Source: Actinomycetes bacterium
GTDB lineage: Bacteria > Actinomycetota > Acidimicrobiia > Acidimicrobiales > Acidimicrobiaceae
DNA: 64,000 nt
Assembly: GCA_021841935.1 (NCBI GenBank)
Contig: JAKCDL010000008.1
Span: forward strand, 1 to 64,000
Direction of reading: 5' to 3'
Shown here piece after piece: positions 6,457 to 16,291 of the stretch. How positions within the stretch are numbered: the first letter of the stretch is position 1; every line of letters starts with the position of its first letter. The translations under genes and the position numbers were made by a program. The notes beneath the pieces were generated by a model. That model ran no database searches and had not been told where the DNA came from. It was given only the letters and a program-made list of their open reading frames with translations.

Positions 6457-8118
6457 ATGACGATCCAGTCAAAAGGACAAGCTTGGCAGCAGATTGCCAA
6501 TACGAAAGGAATTATTGACTTACCGATGCGCATCGATTCACTCAACGTAGGAATTATTTCAAACTCGAGCGATCGCTCCCTTTCATACTTTTGGCGGAGT
6601 CTCTTATCTGACGTGCAATCCATTACAACGGTCGAAAGATTTTCAAATTCACTCTCATTTGATCTTTTGATAGCCATTGACGCGCAAACCCTATCAGACG
6701 CAGAGATCGCCGAGATATCTAGTGCCAACATTCCTTCGGTCATCTTCCACTTCACCGAAGACGGCAGATTTACGGTAAACCAGAGAGAGTTAATACTCTG
6801 TGATCTAGGTAATGGAGAGTGGTTTTTAAAGGGACCTTCGAGTGAAACTCCGATCTTTTGTCGTCCGCTCTCTATAACCGGAGAAGTCCAATCAATCTTT
6901 ACGATTTCAAAGGGCCTAACGGATCTTACTATCGCAGGATCAATCGATGACCTCAAGTTCGTTGCATTTAGTAGCATTGACCTCAAAACGATTGATCGTC
7001 GAGCCCGAAACCTTCTGAGGGAGAATTTTCTCCCGTTCAGATCGAGAAGTTCGAACCCAGTCAGAGTAGCAATCGCGGGCTACGGCCCCTTCGGCGGAAT
7101 GGGACACTATCACGGCAGTGCAATTGAGGCGACGGATGGACTTGAATTAGTGGCAATCGCGGACCCCAGCGACGACCGTCAAAGATCAGCTAAGGTTCAA
7201 TTTCCTCAAGTTGCGACCTTCGCGACCGTTCAAAAGATGCTGACTGAAAGTGAATTCGAACTAATCATCATCGCTACTCCTCCTTCAACGCACTTCGAAC
7301 TAGCAAAAGCCTCTCTGGACGAGGGGAAGCACGTTGTCGTAGAAAAGCCAATGTGCCTTACGGTAGAAGAGGTGGATGAGCTTCAAGATATCGCGCTTTC
7401 AAAGGGCTTATCTTTAACTGTTCATCAAAATCGTAGATATGACCCGGACTTTTTGATGTTGCGCGAGATTATCGAAAGTGGTGAAGTTGGTGAAGTCTTT
7501 AATATAGAGACAACGGTGGGTACCTTCGAGCACCCATGTCGCGCATGGCACAGCGACGAGTCCATCTCAGGTGGAGCTGCTTACGATTGGGGCTCGCATC
7601 ACATCGACTGGATTCTGCAACTCTACGGGGAATCGCCAACCGAAATTTTTGCAACTTCCCACAAGAGAGTTTGGCACGATGTAACTAATGTAGACCAAAT
7701 GAAGATCGAAATGATCTTTGCAGATGGCCGAGAGGCAACGTTTATCCAAAGCGAGATATCTGCTCACCGCAAACCCAAATTTTATGTTCAAGGAACGAAA
7801 GGGACGATCGTTGGATGGTACCAACCGATCGTCGATAAGCAAATCTCCTTCCCCTTTGGCTACCAAGAATCTCATCATCACTTCGCCGAGGCTCCTGTGG
7901 ATCTCGAAGTAGCAAAGTACATTGGGGACAATCGAATCGTTACTCAAAAATATCGTCCAAAGTTCTCTGAGCCATTTGAATTTCACAGAAACATCGCAGC
8001 ACATCTACAATTTGGCGAAGAAATCGAAGTAAAGCTATCCCAGGTCCGCCGCGTTATTGGTGTTTTAGAGGAGTCGCAGCGAATCAGCACTTCCAAAGAA
8101 CACTTCTACAAGTTCTAA
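6457..8118 (+). CDS. Gfo/Idh/MocA oxidoreductase with ~200-residue N-terminal extension
   Basis: A 553-residue protein. Residues from about 203 onward form a standard Gfo/Idh/MocA dehydrogenase: a Rossmann nucleotide-binding motif (AIAGYGPFGGMGHYHG), the conserved EKP of VVVEKPMCL near residue 300, and a C-terminal domain with GGAAYDWGSHHIDW near residue 370, where the histidine is the likely catalytic or sugar-contacting residue. Members oxidise or reduce sugars, inositols or related carbonyls with NAD(P). The first ~200 residues are unusual for the family and I do not recognise them; they look globular (alternating strands and helices) rather than disordered. Starts are uncertain: ATG 6457 or ATG 6526, neither with a clear ribosome site. 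It is followed by a second family member 26 bases downstream. Confidence 0.82.
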   Translation: MTIQSKGQAWQQIANTKGIIDLPMRIDSLNVGIISNSSDRSLSYFWRSLLSDVQSITTVERFSNSLSFDLLIAIDAQTLSDAEIAEISSANIPSVIFHFTEDGRFTVNQRELILCDLGNGEWFLKGPSSETPIFCRPLSITGEVQSIFTISKGLTDLTIAGSIDDLKFVAFSSIDLKTIDRRARNLLRENFLPFRSRSSNPVRVAIAGYGPFGGMGHYHGSAIEATDGLELVAIADPSDDRQRSAKVQFPQVATFATVQKMLTESEFELIIIATPPSTHFELAKASLDEGKHVVVEKPMCLTVEEVDELQDIALSKGLSLTVHQNRRYDPDFLMLREIIESGEVGEVFNIETTVGTFEHPCRAWHSDESISGGAAYDWGSHHIDWILQLYGESPTEIFATSHKRVWHDVTNVDQMKIEMIFADGREATFIQSEISAHRKPKFYVQGTKGTIVGWYQPIVDKQISFPFGYQESHHHFAEAPVDLEVAKYIGDNRIVTQKYRPKFSEPFEFHRNIAAHLQFGEEIEVKLSQVRRVIGVLEESQRISTSKEHFYKF

Positions 8119-8144: not shown

Positions 8145-9101
8145 TTGAAACAAGTATCTTGGATAATTGCCGCAAGCGGATCTAGTATTGCAAATTCTGC
8201 CGTAATTCCAGCGATCCTTGCAACTGAAGGATCACAGATCATTGGCCACTGCTCACTGAGCCAGACACACGTCCCACTCGACGATTCCCCCGCAATCAGG
8301 TATCCAAGCTATGAAAAATTAATCAGAGAATCTGGAGCCGATGCACTCTATATTCCTTTGCCAAACAACTATCATCTCGATCTAATTCGACTTGCTGTGG
8401 AGTGTGGGGTCAATGTACTCTGCGAGAAGCCGCTCGCAATGAACGTCGAAGAGATCGATGAGATTATTAAGGTGGCGGAGGGGTCATCGGTCGTAGTTGA
8501 AGAAGCATACATGACTACACATTCGCTGCGTGACCAACGCCTTCGAGAGATAGCAAGACGCATTGGGTCGACTGAGGCCACGGCTCGTTTTACCTTCGAG
8601 AATCGCAACTTCGAAAATTATCGAATGGACCGCCGCTTCGGAGGTGGGGCCCTTCTAGACGTTGGAATTTACGTTCTCGATCCCATCATCGACCTCTTTG
8701 GCGAGCCTACAGGAATTGAGATAGTCAATTTCAAAGAAAGAAACGATACCGACATGGATCTAGAGGCGGTCTTAAAACACCCAGACGGTAAAACATCCCG
8801 AATTGTTACCTCATTTGTCCGCCCCGAAGAGCAGTTTCTTCAATTTTCGAATGGAAAAATGAAAATCTCGGCTGCGAGGCCATTCACACCATCCATCGAT
8901 GACGTGCAAATCGTGATCGAAGATAACGATGGATCTACCTCAACGGAGCTAGCCGAGGGTAACTACATATACCGTGCGATGGTAGAAGATTTCAACAGGG
9001 CGATCTCCACAGGAACTAGGCCGAGAAGGTCCTTGGAACAAAGCAGAAATGTTCAGCAGGTAATCGACGATATTTTCGAAGCCGCAAGGGCAATAAGTTA
9101 G
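8145..9101 (+). CDS. Gfo/Idh/MocA family oxidoreductase
   Basis: A 318-residue NAD(P)-dependent oxidoreductase of normal family length. The N-terminal fold begins IIAASGSSIANS, an atypical dinucleotide-binding loop (family members usually have GxGxxG, here ASGSSIAN). Then come YIPLPNNYH, the conserved EKP motif in VLCEKPLAMN, EEAYMTTH, and GGGALLDVGIY with the catalytic-region aspartate. It resembles the glucose-fructose oxidoreductase and trans-dihydrodiol dehydrogenase side of the family. TTG start at 8145. Its position directly after another family member and before a hydrolase suggests steps of one small-molecule pathway, whose substrate cannot be deduced. Confidence 0.84.
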   Translation: MKQVSWIIAASGSSIANSAVIPAILATEGSQIIGHCSLSQTHVPLDDSPAIRYPSYEKLIRESGADALYIPLPNNYHLDLIRLAVECGVNVLCEKPLAMNVEEIDEIIKVAEGSSVVVEEAYMTTHSLRDQRLREIARRIGSTEATARFTFENRNFENYRMDRRFGGGALLDVGIYVLDPIIDLFGEPTGIEIVNFKERNDTDMDLEAVLKHPDGKTSRIVTSFVRPEEQFLQFSNGKMKISAARPFTPSIDDVQIVIEDNDGSTSTELAEGNYIYRAMVEDFNRAISTGTRPRRSLEQSRNVQQVIDDIFEAARAIS

Positions 9102-9172: not shown

Positions 9173-10024
9173 GTGAAAAATCATCTAGTAGAGGTCAGCG
9201 ACTCCGTTTCAATCGCAACCACCCGTCATGGTTCAAGCGAACCAGAAGTCGTTCTAGTCCATGGCTTAGCTTCCAATCGTCACATGTACGATCTTGTCGC
9301 TGAAGAACTCGAAGAGATGGGGATTTCGTCTCTTTCCTTAGACCAACGAGGCCACGGGGATAGTTCAAAACCAGATCAAGGCTATGACCACAAGACGCTA
9401 GCTAATGATGTAGCTACGGTAGTAAAAAGCTTCGGTAATTCACACCCAAAGGTAATGGTAGGTCAATCCTGGGGCGGGGCATTTGTTTCAGACTTTGCAA
9501 TCAACTTTCCCGACTTGGTAAGCGGGTTGGTACTTATCGATGGCGGCATCTTCGACCTAAAAGAACGCTTTGATTCATGGGATTCTGTTGCTAGGAATCT
9601 GGCCCCTCCGAAATTCAGTGGAGTGAAGTACGAAGATCTAGAGGAAAGAATTGCAAGTGGAGGTTGGACAGGTCGCCAACTCTCCTGCATTATGGAAAAC
9701 TTTGAAAACGTTGAAGGTGAAGCTCGTCCTCATCTCGTCTTCGAGAATCACATGAAGATCCTCAAGTCCCTCTACGAATATACGCCAAGTAGTACGCTTC
9801 CTTTTCTTTCTATTCCAAAATTAGCCTTGCTAGCGGACCGGGGAAATTCTCCCCTTGCGCAGTCGACCGACTTCGATGCGCAAATCGCAAAAATTTCTAG
9901 AGATCTATCGATTGAGATACGTGAAATCAACGGTGCACGCCACGATTTGCACCTGCAGTACCCAAAAATAACGGCCAATGCAATTCAAGAGATACTCCAA
10001 AGGATCAAGGGTAGCAATAAATGA
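9173..10024 (+). CDS. Alpha/beta-fold hydrolase
   Basis: A 283-residue hydrolase. Residues 28-33 (LVHGLA) give the oxyanion-hole HG motif, residues 57-63 contain DQRGHGDS, and the nucleophile elbow is GQSWGG with Ser99. The acid is probably the Asp of LIDGG or a later one, and the catalytic His lies in GARHDLH near the C-terminus. Such enzymes cleave esters, amides or C-C bonds of small molecules in the cytoplasm; there is no signal peptide. GTG start at 9173. Its TGA overlaps the ATG of the next gene as ATGA, so the two are translationally coupled and probably act together. Confidence 0.88.
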   Translation: MKNHLVEVSDSVSIATTRHGSSEPEVVLVHGLASNRHMYDLVAEELEEMGISSLSLDQRGHGDSSKPDQGYDHKTLANDVATVVKSFGNSHPKVMVGQSWGGAFVSDFAINFPDLVSGLVLIDGGIFDLKERFDSWDSVARNLAPPKFSGVKYEDLEERIASGGWTGRQLSCIMENFENVEGEARPHLVFENHMKILKSLYEYTPSSTLPFLSIPKLALLADRGNSPLAQSTDFDAQIAKISRDLSIEIREINGARHDLHLQYPKITANAIQEILQRIKGSNK

Positions 10025-11286
10025 CTAAAAAAATCGTCCTTCTCGGATCGGGTGAGACCGCACCCACGATGGTGAAAGTTCATAGGTCGATATTTAATGA
10101 GCTCATACAACCGCACAAAGCGATCATGCTTGATACTCCATTCGGGTTTCAAGCTAACGCCGAAGAAATATCTGCCAAGGCGGCTGACTACTTTCGTATT
10201 AGCATCAACGAAAAAATCGACACAGCATCGCTCAAGAACTTCGAAAAGGCTTCGGCATATGAAATCGAACGCTTCAGAGAGTTGGTAGCGTCATCAAATT
10301 ACATCTTCGCCGGACCAGGAAGTCCCACATATGCCCTTCGACAGTGGCTAAAGGTTGACCTAGCGTCTCTGCTTGCAAAGAAACTACAGAGTGATTTTGC
10401 TATAGTCTTTTCATCTGCTGCAGTCCTAACTCTAGGCAGATACACCATCCCGGTCTACGAAATATACAAGGTAGGGGAAGATCCTCGACTGCATGATGGC
10501 CTGGACTTCCTAGCGGCTATTGGCCTCAATGTACTTGTTATACCGCACTACAATAACCAAGAAGGCGGAAGCCACGACACGCGATACTGTTACATGGGGA
10601 AGGACCGACTCCCAATTCTTGAATCGCAGATGGAAGCTACGACTTCAATTCTCGGGATCGACGAGCACACCGGTTTGATAATTGACCTTGAGATTGATGA
10701 GGTGACCGTTGTCGGAATCGGAACAATAACAATTCGACGACACGGCAAAAGTTCCTCGTACCCGAGCGGCGAAACCTTCTCATTCAACGACTTTAAGGCG
10801 CTACTTTCCGGTGAAAACTCCTACGACTTCGCAGACATAGTTAGCTCCGACAAGAAAACGATCGTTACTAGCCATGACCAAGATGCGACAACGAGCCCGC
10901 TTCACACTTCTTTGGTCGAACTCGAAGAGGAATTCAACACCAGCTATTCAGAGAAAAACGCATCAAGGGCTCTCGATGCGATTCTCAAGATTGAAGATGT
11001 ACTTGAGCAATGGAGAGCCGATACCCTCCAATCCGACGACTTTGACTTCGGTAGATCTCTTCTTCGCAGTTGCATAGCACGCCTAGGAGAGTGGCTCGAA
11101 ATTGGCAGCGTCGACAAAAAATCAGTTATTGCTCCCTTTGTAGAGATTCTTATTGAGCTAAGAAAAACATTTCGGGACGAGCGTAGATTTTCAGATGCTG
11201 ACTTTTTGAGAGATAGCCTAACAAAGGCTGGTATTGAAGTACAAGATCAGTCTTCCGGTACATATTGGACACTTATCACAGGTTGA
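10021..11286 (+). CDS. S51/class I amidotransferase-like protein fused to a CysRS-like C-terminal domain
   Basis: A 421-residue protein with two parts. Residues 1-250 look like the peptidase S51/cyanophycinase-like branch of the glutamine amidotransferase fold: LLGSGE at the start, AGPGSP near residue 100, a nucleophile-type turn FSSAA (Ser131/132), HYNNQEGGSHDTRYC at 176-190, and IDEHTG at 213-218. Residues ~340-421 resemble the C-terminal anticodon-binding (DALR) domain of cysteinyl-tRNA synthetase: ELRKTFRDERRFSDADFLRD, then KAGIEVQD and GTYWTL, matching the typical R..kdF..AD.iRd.L...GI...D...GT.W pattern. The middle is acidic and probably a linker. The CysRS catalytic core is absent. The ATG overlaps the upstream hydrolase stop. 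Its function is unknown; a hydrolase acting on a tRNA- or thiol-linked substrate would be speculation. Confidence 0.75.
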   Translation: MTKKIVLLGSGETAPTMVKVHRSIFNELIQPHKAIMLDTPFGFQANAEEISAKAADYFRISINEKIDTASLKNFEKASAYEIERFRELVASSNYIFAGPGSPTYALRQWLKVDLASLLAKKLQSDFAIVFSSAAVLTLGRYTIPVYEIYKVGEDPRLHDGLDFLAAIGLNVLVIPHYNNQEGGSHDTRYCYMGKDRLPILESQMEATTSILGIDEHTGLIIDLEIDEVTVVGIGTITIRRHGKSSSYPSGETFSFNDFKALLSGENSYDFADIVSSDKKTIVTSHDQDATTSPLHTSLVELEEEFNTSYSEKNASRALDAILKIEDVLEQWRADTLQSDDFDFGRSLLRSCIARLGEWLEIGSVDKKSVIAPFVEILIELRKTFRDERRFSDADFLRDSLTKAGIEVQDQSSGTYWTLITG

Positions 11287-11345: not shown

Positions 11346-11418
11346 GCCCCCATCGTCTAGAGGCCTAGGACGTCGCCCTTTCACGGCGGTAACACGGGTT
11401 CGAATCCCGTTGGGGGTG
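11346..11418 (+). tRNA. tRNA-Glu (anticodon TTC)
   Basis: Cloverleaf of 73 bases: acceptor GCCCCCA pairs with TGGGGGT (one G-U at the end), D-arm TCTAGAGGCCTAGGA, anticodon loop CTTTCAC with anticodon TTC, and T-arm GTTCGAATC. CCA is not encoded (GCA follows). A TAGAAT sequence about 15-20 bases upstream could be the -10 element. Confidence 0.97.
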
Positions 11419-11420
11419 CA

Positions 11421-12073
11421 ATAATCTCAAAGCTCTGAAGATAAGGCTCGGATTGCTTCGACGCTTAAATCTTGTTTGCAAGTCTTCACAAATCAGCACG
11501 AGATACCTTTCGGGCAAGTTCCAATTGAGTCGATGAAGACATTCGATCAAATAAACCCCATTTAGGTACCACCTCCAAAAATTCAAGTTGCTGCTAGTTT
11601 CTTGAGGTGCGGTTGCAACGGTAAGCATCTATTGCAAAAGTGCGGAATAGCCCTAACTCATTTCACCTTCAAGCCACTGAGATTGAAATCTCATCGACTT
11701 TCATGCCCAACAAATCATCAATACGAGGAGTTACCAAAACCTATCGATAGACATGAATTCAACTATTAATGGGCTGCTCAACCGTTCCACATTCAAGTAA
11801 TTGATAGCAAAAAAATAAAAATCAAGTCGGCAACACTTATCTTGCAGTAATAACTGGCGGAACAATCGTTACCTCAATACCTTTTACGCACGTATCCAAC
11901 TTCGCACGTTGACTTACGGGAAAGACGCCATATCTACCTTCATCAGCTTGATGGACGTGCCCCTTAGATATAACTAAACCATGTGACCGAAAGGAATATC
12001 AAGTAAATTGCAGAGGTTCGATCGAGACTAGCTAAACTTAGAAGTCCCAAACGCACGATAGTGCTGAGGCCCT
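11421..12073. other. Intergenic stretch, no gene seen
   Basis: About 650 bases between tRNA-Glu and tRNA-Asp. One 87-codon reverse frame exists at its left end but runs through the tRNA gene and has no recognisable content. A reverse open frame of about 47 codons ending at 11837 has a protein-like look but no start codon. I see no terminator with a U-run and no repeat of note. It may be decayed sequence. Confidence 0.6.
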
Positions 12074-12151
12074 GGACCTGTGGTGCAGCTTGGAGTGCAC
12101 GCCGGCCTGTCAAGCCGGAGGCCGCGGGTTCAAATCCCGTCAGGTCCGCCA
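12074..12151 (+). tRNA. tRNA-Asp (anticodon GTC)
   Basis: Acceptor GGACCTG (12074-12080) pairs with CAGGTCC (12141-12147). The anticodon loop CTGTCAA gives GTC, and the T-arm is GTTCAAATC. Discriminator G at 12148 is followed by an encoded CCA at 12149-12151. It lies 15 bases before tRNA-Phe, so the two are probably co-transcribed. Confidence 0.97.
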
Positions 12152-12166
12152 GTGGTCTTCCACTCT

Positions 12167-12239
12167 GGTCGGGTAGCTCAGTTGGTAGAGCACACGCCTG
12201 AAAAGCGTGGGGTCACCGGATCGAAGCCGGTCCCGACCA
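12167..12239 (+). tRNA. tRNA-Phe (anticodon GAA)
   Basis: Acceptor GGTCGGG (12167-12173) pairs with CCCGACC (12232-12238). The D-arm is TAGCTCAGTTGGTAGAGCA, and the anticodon loop CTGAAAA gives GAA. CCA is not encoded, in contrast to the adjacent tRNA-Asp. A terminator hairpin follows directly. Confidence 0.97.
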
Positions 12240-12242
12240 CTC

Positions 12243-13831: not shown

Positions 13832-16291
13832 GTGGGATTATTTAAGAAAAACAAGAACCCAGATGAAGTCAAAGTTGAAAACAAGAAAGAATCGAGCCTA
13901 GTCTCTGAGCTCCGACGCGAAATGCTCGATGAGTCTCCGTATAACCCAGCTACTTCGTCTTCGGTAAAGACAAGTGCATCAGCTGAAATCCAAGATTCCC
14001 ACAAAAGTGTCGATGAACCACAAAAAGCTTCTACCGAAGATCTTTTACCGAATACAGACGAGAATCCAATTTTCGATGGCAATAAAGAGGAATACGTTCT
14101 TTCATTCGACTCAGATCCCAAGCAATCGGTTTCACACAAGACCGACGCCAAGCCACACTTATCCAATCTAGAGGCCTTCTTTGCACCAAACACCGAGAAG
14201 ACTACACCACAAAACTCCGAACCAAATGATGATCAAAGTATTCAATTCCACAACATAGCTAGCGGCGTTACTTCCGGTCAATCAGAAAATCCAGACGACA
14301 TCAATCTCCCGCATCGCAAAGCTGGTCTTTCAAATAGAGACCTGCTTTGGATATATTCAAAGATGATCGAGTGTCGCCTCCTTGACGAAGAGATGTCTCG
14401 ACTTAGTCGTGCCAAAAAAGCACCCTTCACGATCTCTTCTCGGGGACAAGAGGCCTCTCAAGTAGCATTTGCCGCTGCGATAAACGTTGGTCATGACTTT
14501 ATAGTTCCGTACTATCGCGACCTCGGAATCGTCACCACGTTGGGCATGACACCGTTACAGGTACTCCTCGCTCTCCTCGGGAAGGGAGACGACCCTAACT
14601 CTGGTGGTCGTCAAATGCCAAATCACTGGAGCAGTCCAGAACTTCGGATTATCTCAAGTTCATCTCTCATTGCTAACCACATGACCCATGGAGTTGGGAT
14701 TGCACTCGGCTTAAAAAACGATCATAAAGAAGATGTTGTCTTTGTAACTTTCTCAAGTGCAGCAATTACCAAGGGAGAGTTCCATGAAGCACTCAACTTT
14801 ACCGCATTGAAGAAGCTTCCCATTGTCTTTCTATGCGAAGACAACGGTTCTAGCAACTTTGAGTTATTCCTTGGTGGTAATTTCGTCGCTGACATCACAA
14901 GACGATGTAACTCCTATGGTATCCATCTTGAAGTGGTCGATTCTCTCGATCCAATTTCAATGTACGCCGTAACCTCGAAGGCCAAAACGCGAGCGAAAAC
15001 AGGCGAAGGCGCAACAATAATTGTCACCTCTCCCAATCGCCTTCTTACATCGCGCACATCCATACCTTCCTCTATATCTAGCTCCAATCTTGACGATCCT
15101 TTGGAGGCACTAAGAAATTACCTGATCGAAAATGAGCTAATCAACGTCGACGTCGACAATGAGATGAAGGCATTTGCTACAAGACAGATCACAGATGCAG
15201 TGAGTTTGAGCGAAGTTGCATCCGACCCCGACCCCTCAACTATTTCTCATGGTCTCTTCTTGGAGGCAGAGCCGTCGACTTCAGTCAAGGCCAATCCAAG
15301 ACTTGGATCTGACGAAGAAATCATCCTAAGTTCAGCGATAAATGAAGCACTTTCAGATTCAATGGTGGACGACCAAAGTGTAGTGATCCTTGGAGAAGAG
15401 GTGGGATCAAAGGGTGGGGTATTTAGAGTTACCGCGGGACTTAGCGAACGTTTTGGGAGTTCGCGAGTTATAGATATGCCATTAGCAGAGTCATCGATGG
15501 TAGGAATCGGAATAGGGCTCGCACTCTTTGGCAAACGACCGATCGTAGAGATTCAATTTGCGGACTTTATGTACGCAGCTTTAGATCAAATAATCTCCGA
15601 GGCTTCAAAGATGGCTTATCGAACTGGTGGAACCGTTGGGTTACCGATGGTGATCAGGACTCCGTTTGGTCCGGGAGTAAGGGGTGGGCTATATCACTCT
15701 CAATCAATCGAAGCAATGCTCACACACGTTCCAGGGTTAAAGATCGTTGTACCTTCAACCGTACAAAACGCCTACGACTTAATGCGCGCCGCAATAGACG
15801 ATCCTAACCCAGTTATATTTCTGGAACCAAAGCGCGGATACCGCTCAATAAAAGGAGTCCGCTTTAGCGAGAGGCCAACCGCGAAGATTGGTAAGGCCGA
15901 GATTGCAAAGTCAGGGCGAGATCTAAGTGTCATTACATACGGCGAAATGACTCAAATAGCTGTCGAAGTCGCAGAAGAACTCAGTTCACTTGGTTCGATC
16001 GAAGTAGTTGACCTCATTAGCCTGGCACCCCTCGACAAAGATACGATTATTGACTCAGCGAAGCGCTGCGCCAAAGTGCTCATCGTCCATGAAGACAGCC
16101 GACCATTTGGGATCGGTAGTGAAATTTCTGCCATTATCTCCGAAGAGTGTTTGATGGACTTAGACGCTCCGGTAGTTCGTCTTGCAGGCCCACACATACC
16201 GATGATGCCATATGCTACATCACTCGAATCAGCTGCGACAATTGGCATGGATGAGATTCGCTCTGCAATGACAAAACTGCTTCAAAGCTGA
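13832..16291 (+). CDS. Fused E1alpha-E1beta 2-oxoacid dehydrogenase component
   Basis: An 819-residue fusion. Residues 1-155 are Ser/Asp/Lys-rich and probably disordered. Residues ~160-450 resemble branched-chain 2-oxoacid dehydrogenase E1alpha (SSRGQEASQVAFAAAI, YYRDLGIVTTLGMTP, GGRQMPNHW). Residues ~490-819 are E1beta, with GEEVGSKGGVFRVTAGL, the cofactor-activating Glu near 522, and the active-site His in LYHSQS near 624. In the alpha half, the thiamine-diphosphate/Mg motif G[DE]G...NN reads SSA (residues 308-310)...DN (337-338), so the metal-ligand acidic residue is missing while the flanking KGEFHEALNF and LPIVFLCEDNG are kept. No E2, E3 or lipoylation genes are adjacent. GTG start, with GGGGAG just upstream. 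Substrate class (branched-chain versus pyruvate) is inferred only from similarity. Confidence 0.85.
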   Translation: MGLFKKNKNPDEVKVENKKESSLVSELRREMLDESPYNPATSSSVKTSASAEIQDSHKSVDEPQKASTEDLLPNTDENPIFDGNKEEYVLSFDSDPKQSVSHKTDAKPHLSNLEAFFAPNTEKTTPQNSEPNDDQSIQFHNIASGVTSGQSENPDDINLPHRKAGLSNRDLLWIYSKMIECRLLDEEMSRLSRAKKAPFTISSRGQEASQVAFAAAINVGHDFIVPYYRDLGIVTTLGMTPLQVLLALLGKGDDPNSGGRQMPNHWSSPELRIISSSSLIANHMTHGVGIALGLKNDHKEDVVFVTFSSAAITKGEFHEALNFTALKKLPIVFLCEDNGSSNFELFLGGNFVADITRRCNSYGIHLEVVDSLDPISMYAVTSKAKTRAKTGEGATIIVTSPNRLLTSRTSIPSSISSSNLDDPLEALRNYLIENELINVDVDNEMKAFATRQITDAVSLSEVASDPDPSTISHGLFLEAEPSTSVKANPRLGSDEEIILSSAINEALSDSMVDDQSVVILGEEVGSKGGVFRVTAGLSERFGSSRVIDMPLAESSMVGIGIGLALFGKRPIVEIQFADFMYAALDQIISEASKMAYRTGGTVGLPMVIRTPFGPGVRGGLYHSQSIEAMLTHVPGLKIVVPSTVQNAYDLMRAAIDDPNPVIFLEPKRGYRSIKGVRFSERPTAKIGKAEIAKSGRDLSVITYGEMTQIAVEVAEELSSLGSIEVVDLISLAPLDKDTIIDSAKRCAKVLIVHEDSRPFGIGSEISAIISEECLMDLDAPVVRLAGPHIPMMPYATSLESAATIGMDEIRSAMTKLLQS

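Follow-up and report, generated by a model that had tools for sequence, protein, structure and literature searches.

Background

The S51-type serine hydrolases include peptidase E (PepE), cyanophycinase (CphB), and the microcin C immunity protein MccG. In the report on MccG (PMC9239234), the catalytic triad is given as Ser-His-Glu in PepE and Ser-His-Asp in MccG, and MccG is described as cleaving an isoaspartyl-nucleotide.

Cysteinyl-tRNA synthetase (CysRS) reads position G34 of the GCA anticodon with a small set of residues. For the E. coli enzyme, PMC12684709 (citing Hauenstein 2004) describes hydrogen bonds to G34 from Arg427 and Asp436, stacking of Trp432, and a water-network contact made by Arg423 together with Asp436. 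A review of synthetase duplications lists two CysRS paralogues, MshC and CysRS* (PMC9437257). Both keep the catalytic domain and have lost the anticodon domain. The trans-editing factors YbaK, AlaX, and ProXp are free-standing proteins that hydrolyze aminoacyl-tRNAs, and YbaK has no tRNA specificity of its own (PMC11415595, PMC11295145).

We describe an actinobacterial protein in which an S51-type hydrolase is joined to the anticodon-binding region of CysRS. Like MshC and CysRS*, it is CysRS-derived, but it shows the reverse arrangement: the anticodon domain is kept and the catalytic domain (HIGH/KMSKS) is absent. The role that we propose for it is that of the trans-editing factors; unlike YbaK, it carries its own anticodon reader, and the hydrolase folds of YbaK, AlaX, and ProXp are to our knowledge unrelated to that of the fusion. 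The S51 fold and the CysRS anticodon domain are each already known, and the novelty is their combination. A literature search, which most subscription journals lay outside, found no publication describing such a fusion.

Architecture of the fusion protein

The fusion gene lies in the window, by which we mean the whole 64,000-nucleotide stretch analyzed. Its features and those of its neighbors are as follows.

6457..8118, + strand: Gfo/Idh/MocA oxidoreductase with an N-terminal extension of ~200 aa, putatively in the same operon (domain match; locus comparison)
8145..9101, + strand: Gfo/Idh/MocA oxidoreductase, putatively in the same operon (domain match; locus comparison)
9173..10024, + strand: alpha/beta hydrolase, translationally coupled to the fusion gene (Pfam Abhydrolase_1, 3.8e-19)
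10021..11286, + strand: fusion gene, ATG start, 421 aa, 4 bp overlap (ATGA) with the upstream stop
10021..10806, + strand: residues 1-262, N-terminal S51-type serine hydrolase domain, cyanophycinase/peptidase E fold (AlphaFold2, VIA, Foldseek)
10414..10416, + strand: Ser132, predicted nucleophile (FSSAAV), invariant in 77/77
10546..10548, + strand: His176, predicted triad histidine (IPH), invariant in 77/77
10663..10665, + strand: Glu215, predicted third triad residue (GIDE), invariant in 77/77
10807..10896, + strand: residues 263-292, flexible linker (low pLDDT; homologue lengths)
10897..11115, + strand: residues 293-365, helical bundle, counterpart of the helices in the C-terminal region of CysRS (profile comparison with the E. 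coli enzyme)
11116..11277, + strand: residues 366-419, CysS_C anticodon-reading domain by homology (Pfam, profile, joint alignment)
11161..11175, + strand: Arg381 and Arg385, equivalents of the G34-contacting Arg423 and Arg427 of E. coli CysRS (77/77)
11188..11202, + strand: Phe390 and Asp394, matching Trp432 (stacking on G34) and Asp436 (hydrogen bond to G34) of E. coli CysRS; aromatic in 77/77, Asp in 76/76
11346..11419, + strand: tRNA-Glu just downstream of the fusion, followed by tRNA-Asp and tRNA-Phe; a syntenic neighbor, not part of the system

We are practically certain that this two-domain architecture is genuine. The initial annotation had read the protein as an S51/amidotransferase-like domain fused to the CysRS anticodon-binding domain, and both sequence profiles and structure comparison uphold that reading. 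It had further stated that the catalytic core of CysRS was replaced. In agreement, domain, profile, and structure searches of residues 1-292 found no class I synthetase catalytic domain. In Foldseek, the S51 domain is matched at E 5.5e-14, and the C-terminal domain, modeled by itself, retrieves 1u0b, CysRS bound to tRNA-Cys, as its top match at E 2.3e-3.

The AlphaFold2 model, built from an alignment of 59 homologues, has a mean pLDDT of 90, mostly above 90 across residues 1-262. A disordered stretch at residues 271-289, with pLDDT below 50 at 271-273 and 275-289, falls between the two domains. Among homologues, the interdomain linker varies from 6 to 71 residues, with a median of 31.

The N-terminal domain is an S51-type hydrolase

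The structural evidence for the S51 assignment is strong. In VIA comparisons, the domain aligns to 6nqc (Z 25.0), the cyanophycinase 7uqw (Z 23.0), and the aspartyl dipeptidase PepE 1fy2 (Z 20.3). Eleven S51-type structures are found at Z 16-25, and the next rows are below 10. The sequence evidence is weaker than the structural evidence, yet real: 6nqc, an actinobacterial cyanophycinase-like exopeptidase, matches the fusion-family profile at E 3.4e-8, and PF03575 (Peptidase_S51) matches 19 of 59 homologues, with E values no higher than 0.01 and 1e-5 at best; the fusion protein of the window is not among them.

The Ser132-His176-Glu215 triad is unchanged across all 77 fusion homologues in the alignment. 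Its order and spacing, together with the fold (Z 20-25), are common to PepE, CphB, and 6nqc, although identity to these proteins is 10-21% and only the fusion carries an appended tRNA-type domain. The motifs GSGE, GPGSP, and SAA are likewise invariant among the 77, as are Y-E-Y-K of PVYEIYK. GSGE, GPGSP, PVYEIYK, and HDTR.C are putative family-specific motifs, which would set the fusions apart from PepE, CphB, and 6nqc. The Ser-type nucleophile turn (SSAAVLTLG, with S132) and the GSHDTRYC motif noted earlier from the window sequence are found at the implied positions and are conserved among homologues. The fusion protein is very likely an active hydrolase, as predicted from its alignment and model.

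MccG, also an S51 serine hydrolase, offers a further comparison. In PMC9239234, the third triad residue of clade V MccG is Asp196, whereas it is Glu215 in 77/77 fusions, and the passages on MccG mention no anticodon domain.

The C-terminal region derives from CysRS

The C-terminal region is homologous to the CysS_C domain (PF23493) plus the preceding helical part of CysRS over about 125 residues, and the residues that read G34 are kept. With the C-terminal part of the window protein alone, CysS_C is matched at E 1.4e-4, a score slightly below the Pfam cut-off. Of the homologues, 51/59 match, the best at E 8.5e-13. The same region matches the CysRS model PRK14536 (E 5.6e-7), and a single fusion sequence used as query retrieves the CysRS structure 8qhp at E 4.3e-6. 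A 37-sequence profile finds four solved CysRS structures at E 3.5e-14 to 9e-12, which argues against the C-terminus being generic helical sequence without a CysRS match. Profile alignment pairs residues ~293-419 with residues 334-459 of E. coli CysRS. Thus, the homology to the end of CysRS that had been assigned to the last ~80 residues holds, but the stretch is longer, beginning at about residue 293.

Fold comparison is less specific for this region. A VIA search with the C-terminal domain alone returned many unrelated helical bundles (Z ~10), with CysRS not among them. Because of this result, and because the Foldseek match to 1u0b stands at E 2.3e-3, sequence profiles are the main basis for assigning the region to CysRS. 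The rmsd to 1u0b is ~17 A because the two subdomains are differently oriented. In one genus (g74), the domain is trimmed to 67-102 residues; here the helical bundle is shortened and the anticodon reader is retained.

Anticodon-contact residues are conserved

The residues that contact G34 in CysRS are kept throughout the fusion family. A joint alignment, along with the profile alignment, gives the equivalences R381=R423, R385=R427, F390=W432, and D394=D436. Among the fusions, the R423 and R427 positions are Arg in 77/77 each, the W432 position is aromatic in 77/77, and the D436 position is Asp in 76/76. The R427 equivalent is stricter in the fusions (Arg in 59/59) than in the CysRS sequences of the order, where it is Arg in 24 and Lys in 5 of 29. 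About 50 positions make up the subdomain and six of them are near-invariant; all three charged G34-contact sites are among these six, with a chance probability of ~0.001. The equivalents of R439 and D451 are also kept in the joint alignment. D431 and E450, nearly invariant in CysRS, have drifted in the fusions, often to Arg.

Selection for anticodon reading would be expected to produce such a pattern. Judged from these alignments, the CysS_C module probably still binds tRNA-Cys, and we infer a preference for tRNA-Cys over other G34 tRNAs.

The fusion is widespread and may have arisen once

In the window's order, 124 of 298 genomes have a match. Four of these matches are C-terminal domains of ordinary CysRS, leaving ~120 genomes with the fusion. 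Most of the ~120 share 40-50% identity over the full length, a breadth of conservation that indicates that the fusion is not a chance product. When 396 genomes of the phylum were searched with a profile, 13 more full-length fusions appeared outside the order. Among plasmid records, tblastn detected the complete fusion in three Streptomycetaceae as well as in Nonomuraea gerenzanensis; the only two annotated copies are labeled "hypothetical protein". The fusion is also present, in a gene order common to both, on two MAG contigs labeled Rokubacteria and Chloroflexi, where it could possibly reflect misbinning or transfer.

In a tree of the C-terminal domain, a single branch (support 100/99, length 2.1 changes per site) separates the fusions from CysRS, that of E. 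coli included. The fusion domains thus form their own clade on a long branch. This suggests a single capture, either ancient or followed by fast evolution, and not several fusions in which each lineage used its own CysRS; for so short a domain, the tree does not prove that the fusion arose once.

Gene neighborhood

The alpha/beta hydrolase and Gfo/Idh/MocA genes upstream of the fusion are metabolic. In a first set of 46 loci, the alpha/beta hydrolase lies directly 5' of the fusion in 18, eight of them with a 4-bp overlap. It also adjoins the fusion upstream in two loci from outside the order (L133 and L140). Both in the window's family and in L133, which comes from another part of the phylum, the alpha/beta hydrolase-fusion pair is preceded by two Gfo/Idh/MocA oxidoreductases. 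The ~200-residue N-terminal extension of the protein at 6457-8118 has no Pfam match.

Farther upstream, CtaA is found in 22/46 loci, ClpS in 16/46, and DUF2017 in 24/46. The tRNA-Glu/tRNA-Asp/tRNA-Phe trio (11346-12240) that follows the fusion is kept in several families of the order, with varying gaps between the tRNAs. We read CtaA, ClpS, DUF2017, and the tRNA trio as a syntenic block reflecting ancestral position, not function. On two Streptomycetaceae plasmids, the context differs from that in the window's order: genes for DUF4331, TPR, nickel-transporter, and class F sortase proteins lie near the fusion.

A separate feature of the window is an 819-aa protein (13832-16291) in which the E1 alpha (E1_dh) and E1 beta (transketolase-type) parts of a 2-oxoacid dehydrogenase form a single chain. 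Its N-terminus is extended by ~170 residues that look disordered.

Function of the fusion protein

We show above that the key contacts of the anticodon reader are kept in 77 relatives. Because of this, the hydrolase probably either acts on tRNA-Cys or is controlled by it. The presence of the reader residues, intact across much of the phylum, predicts a cysteine-tRNA-specific step outside charging. Cys-tRNA was among the substrates proposed initially, and the retention of residues that read the tRNA anticodon supports it. A thiol or a peptide, also proposed, is disfavored since neither would need those residues.

Our leading interpretation, held tentatively, is a tRNA-Cys-directed serine hydrolase that may be a trans-acting deacylase for quality control or recycling. 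The CysS_C module would dock on the anticodon loop of tRNA-Cys and read G34 as CysRS does, and the flexible linker and helical bundle would let the S51 domain reach the acceptor end. The target of Ser132 might be an acyl ester or the first peptide bond on the bound tRNA. The likeliest bond would be the acyl ester at the 3' end of a Cys-tRNA-Cys that is mischarged, modified, or N-blocked (peptidyl). That the substrate bond lies at the acyl end is a guess of similarly tentative standing. Still more doubtful is the wider proposal of a new family of tRNA-Cys-specific acyl hydrolases, with an S51 fold and a captured reader, acting in trans-editing or peptidyl-tRNA-Cys rescue as the first aminoacyl-tRNA hydrolase of this fold. 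If aminoacyl- or peptidyl-tRNA-Cys is indeed hydrolyzed, these bacteria would have a dedicated quality-control enzyme for cysteine codons.

Several lines of evidence favor a tRNA-Cys-directed hydrolase. The fusion is maintained over wide distances, with a triad unchanged in 77/77 and an S51 fold at Z 25. The equivalents of the G34 contacts are conserved, shortened C-terminal domains retain the reader, and a CysRS-tRNA-Cys complex (1u0b) is the best solved match of that domain alone. By analogy, the action of MccG on an aminoacyl-nucleotide makes acyl-end chemistry plausible for the S51 fold. Other evidence points the opposite way. The alpha/beta hydrolase and the Gfo/Idh pair are metabolic rather than translational neighbors, and the C-terminal domain superposes on 1u0b with the large rmsd noted above. 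The known S51 substrates are peptides, cyanophycin, and isoaspartyl-nucleotides. We know of no S51 aminoacyl-tRNA deacylase, and we are not aware that CysRS needs editing. The invariant residues of the C-terminal domain could be partly structural. Furthermore, G34 alone is insufficient to specify Cys, and the mapped contacts are those to G34, although the D451 and R439 equivalents are kept.

The same conservation would be expected if tRNA-Cys were a regulator. Here, CysS_C would sense (uncharged) tRNA-Cys and thereby switch an S51 peptidase or amidase whose substrate is a small peptide or amide, for instance to free amino acids when cysteine is short. If true, this would be a new sensor of cysteine supply. 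Such control suits the metabolic operon neighbors, two Gfo/Idh/MocA dehydrogenases and an alpha/beta hydrolase, as well as the mainly peptidase activity of known S51 enzymes (PMC9239234). However, we found no second metabolite-binding or regulatory feature in the fusion protein, and the long disordered linker argues against tight allostery. Taken alone, this reading is rather unlikely; given the metabolic neighbors, a tRNA-Cys-switched peptidase is nearly as likely as acyl-end hydrolysis. A distinctly unlikely alternative is that CysS_C has lost tRNA-Cys selection and tethers an ordinary S51 exopeptidase to RNA or ribosomes in general, or acts as a protein-protein module for it. This would fit the long branch (2.1 changes per site) to all sampled CysRS and the change of the CysRS-invariant D431 and E450, often to Arg, but it would not require Arg, Arg, an aromatic residue, and Asp at the exact G34 sites, which are kept in all homologues amid variable neighbors.

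Detoxification akin to that by MccG is improbable, more so than a general tether. The S51 domain would destroy an aminoacyl-nucleotide or another CysRS inhibitor, and the anticodon domain would hold it by the synthetase/tRNA complex. The MccG precedent on an isoaspartyl-nucleotide and the patchy distribution outside the order, including Streptomyces plasmids, favor this. Conversely, the third triad residue is Asp in clade V MccG (PMC9239234) and Glu in the fusion family, and the locus in the order is syntenic and outside biosynthetic clusters. PADLOC returned no match, and a defense system was rejected on that ground.

Other readings were tried and rejected

A split synthetase, in which a truncated CysRS would obtain its anticodon domain in trans from the fusion, is almost certainly wrong. 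It was raised by the window's genome, where the fusion is the only CysS_C match and the only strong cysS match is 375 aa long. This 375-aa protein stops before the anticodon-binding domain and scores higher as MshC (398 bits) than as cysS (362). Three genomes of the same genus carry both the fusion and a full-length CysRS. We did not find a full-length CysRS in the window's assembly, which is 86.6% complete, and its absence is probably an assembly gap.

The initial annotation had also suggested a link to mycothiol or thiol metabolism, which did not hold. MshC lacks an anticodon domain, and full-length CysRS is present beside the fusion in same-genus relatives. Nearly every genome of the order, whether it has the fusion or not, contains at least two CysRS-family genes, which thus do not track the fusion. 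We found no mycothiol gene in the fusion neighborhood.

Replacement of YbaK was considered because YbaK is rarer in fusion genomes (14/120 vs 43/178, p 0.007), but that test ignores kinship and is too confounded. Editing of Sec-tRNA-Cys was rejected as well. SelD shows no enrichment in fusion genomes (64/120 vs 115/178; p 0.05, for the reverse trend), and the order-wide search found none in the window's genus. The SelD result is still compatible with free selenocysteine as a substrate. As a separate observation, most of the strongest SelD matches in the order have an in-frame TGA, as for selenoprotein SelD. Selenocysteine decoding thus seems common in the order.
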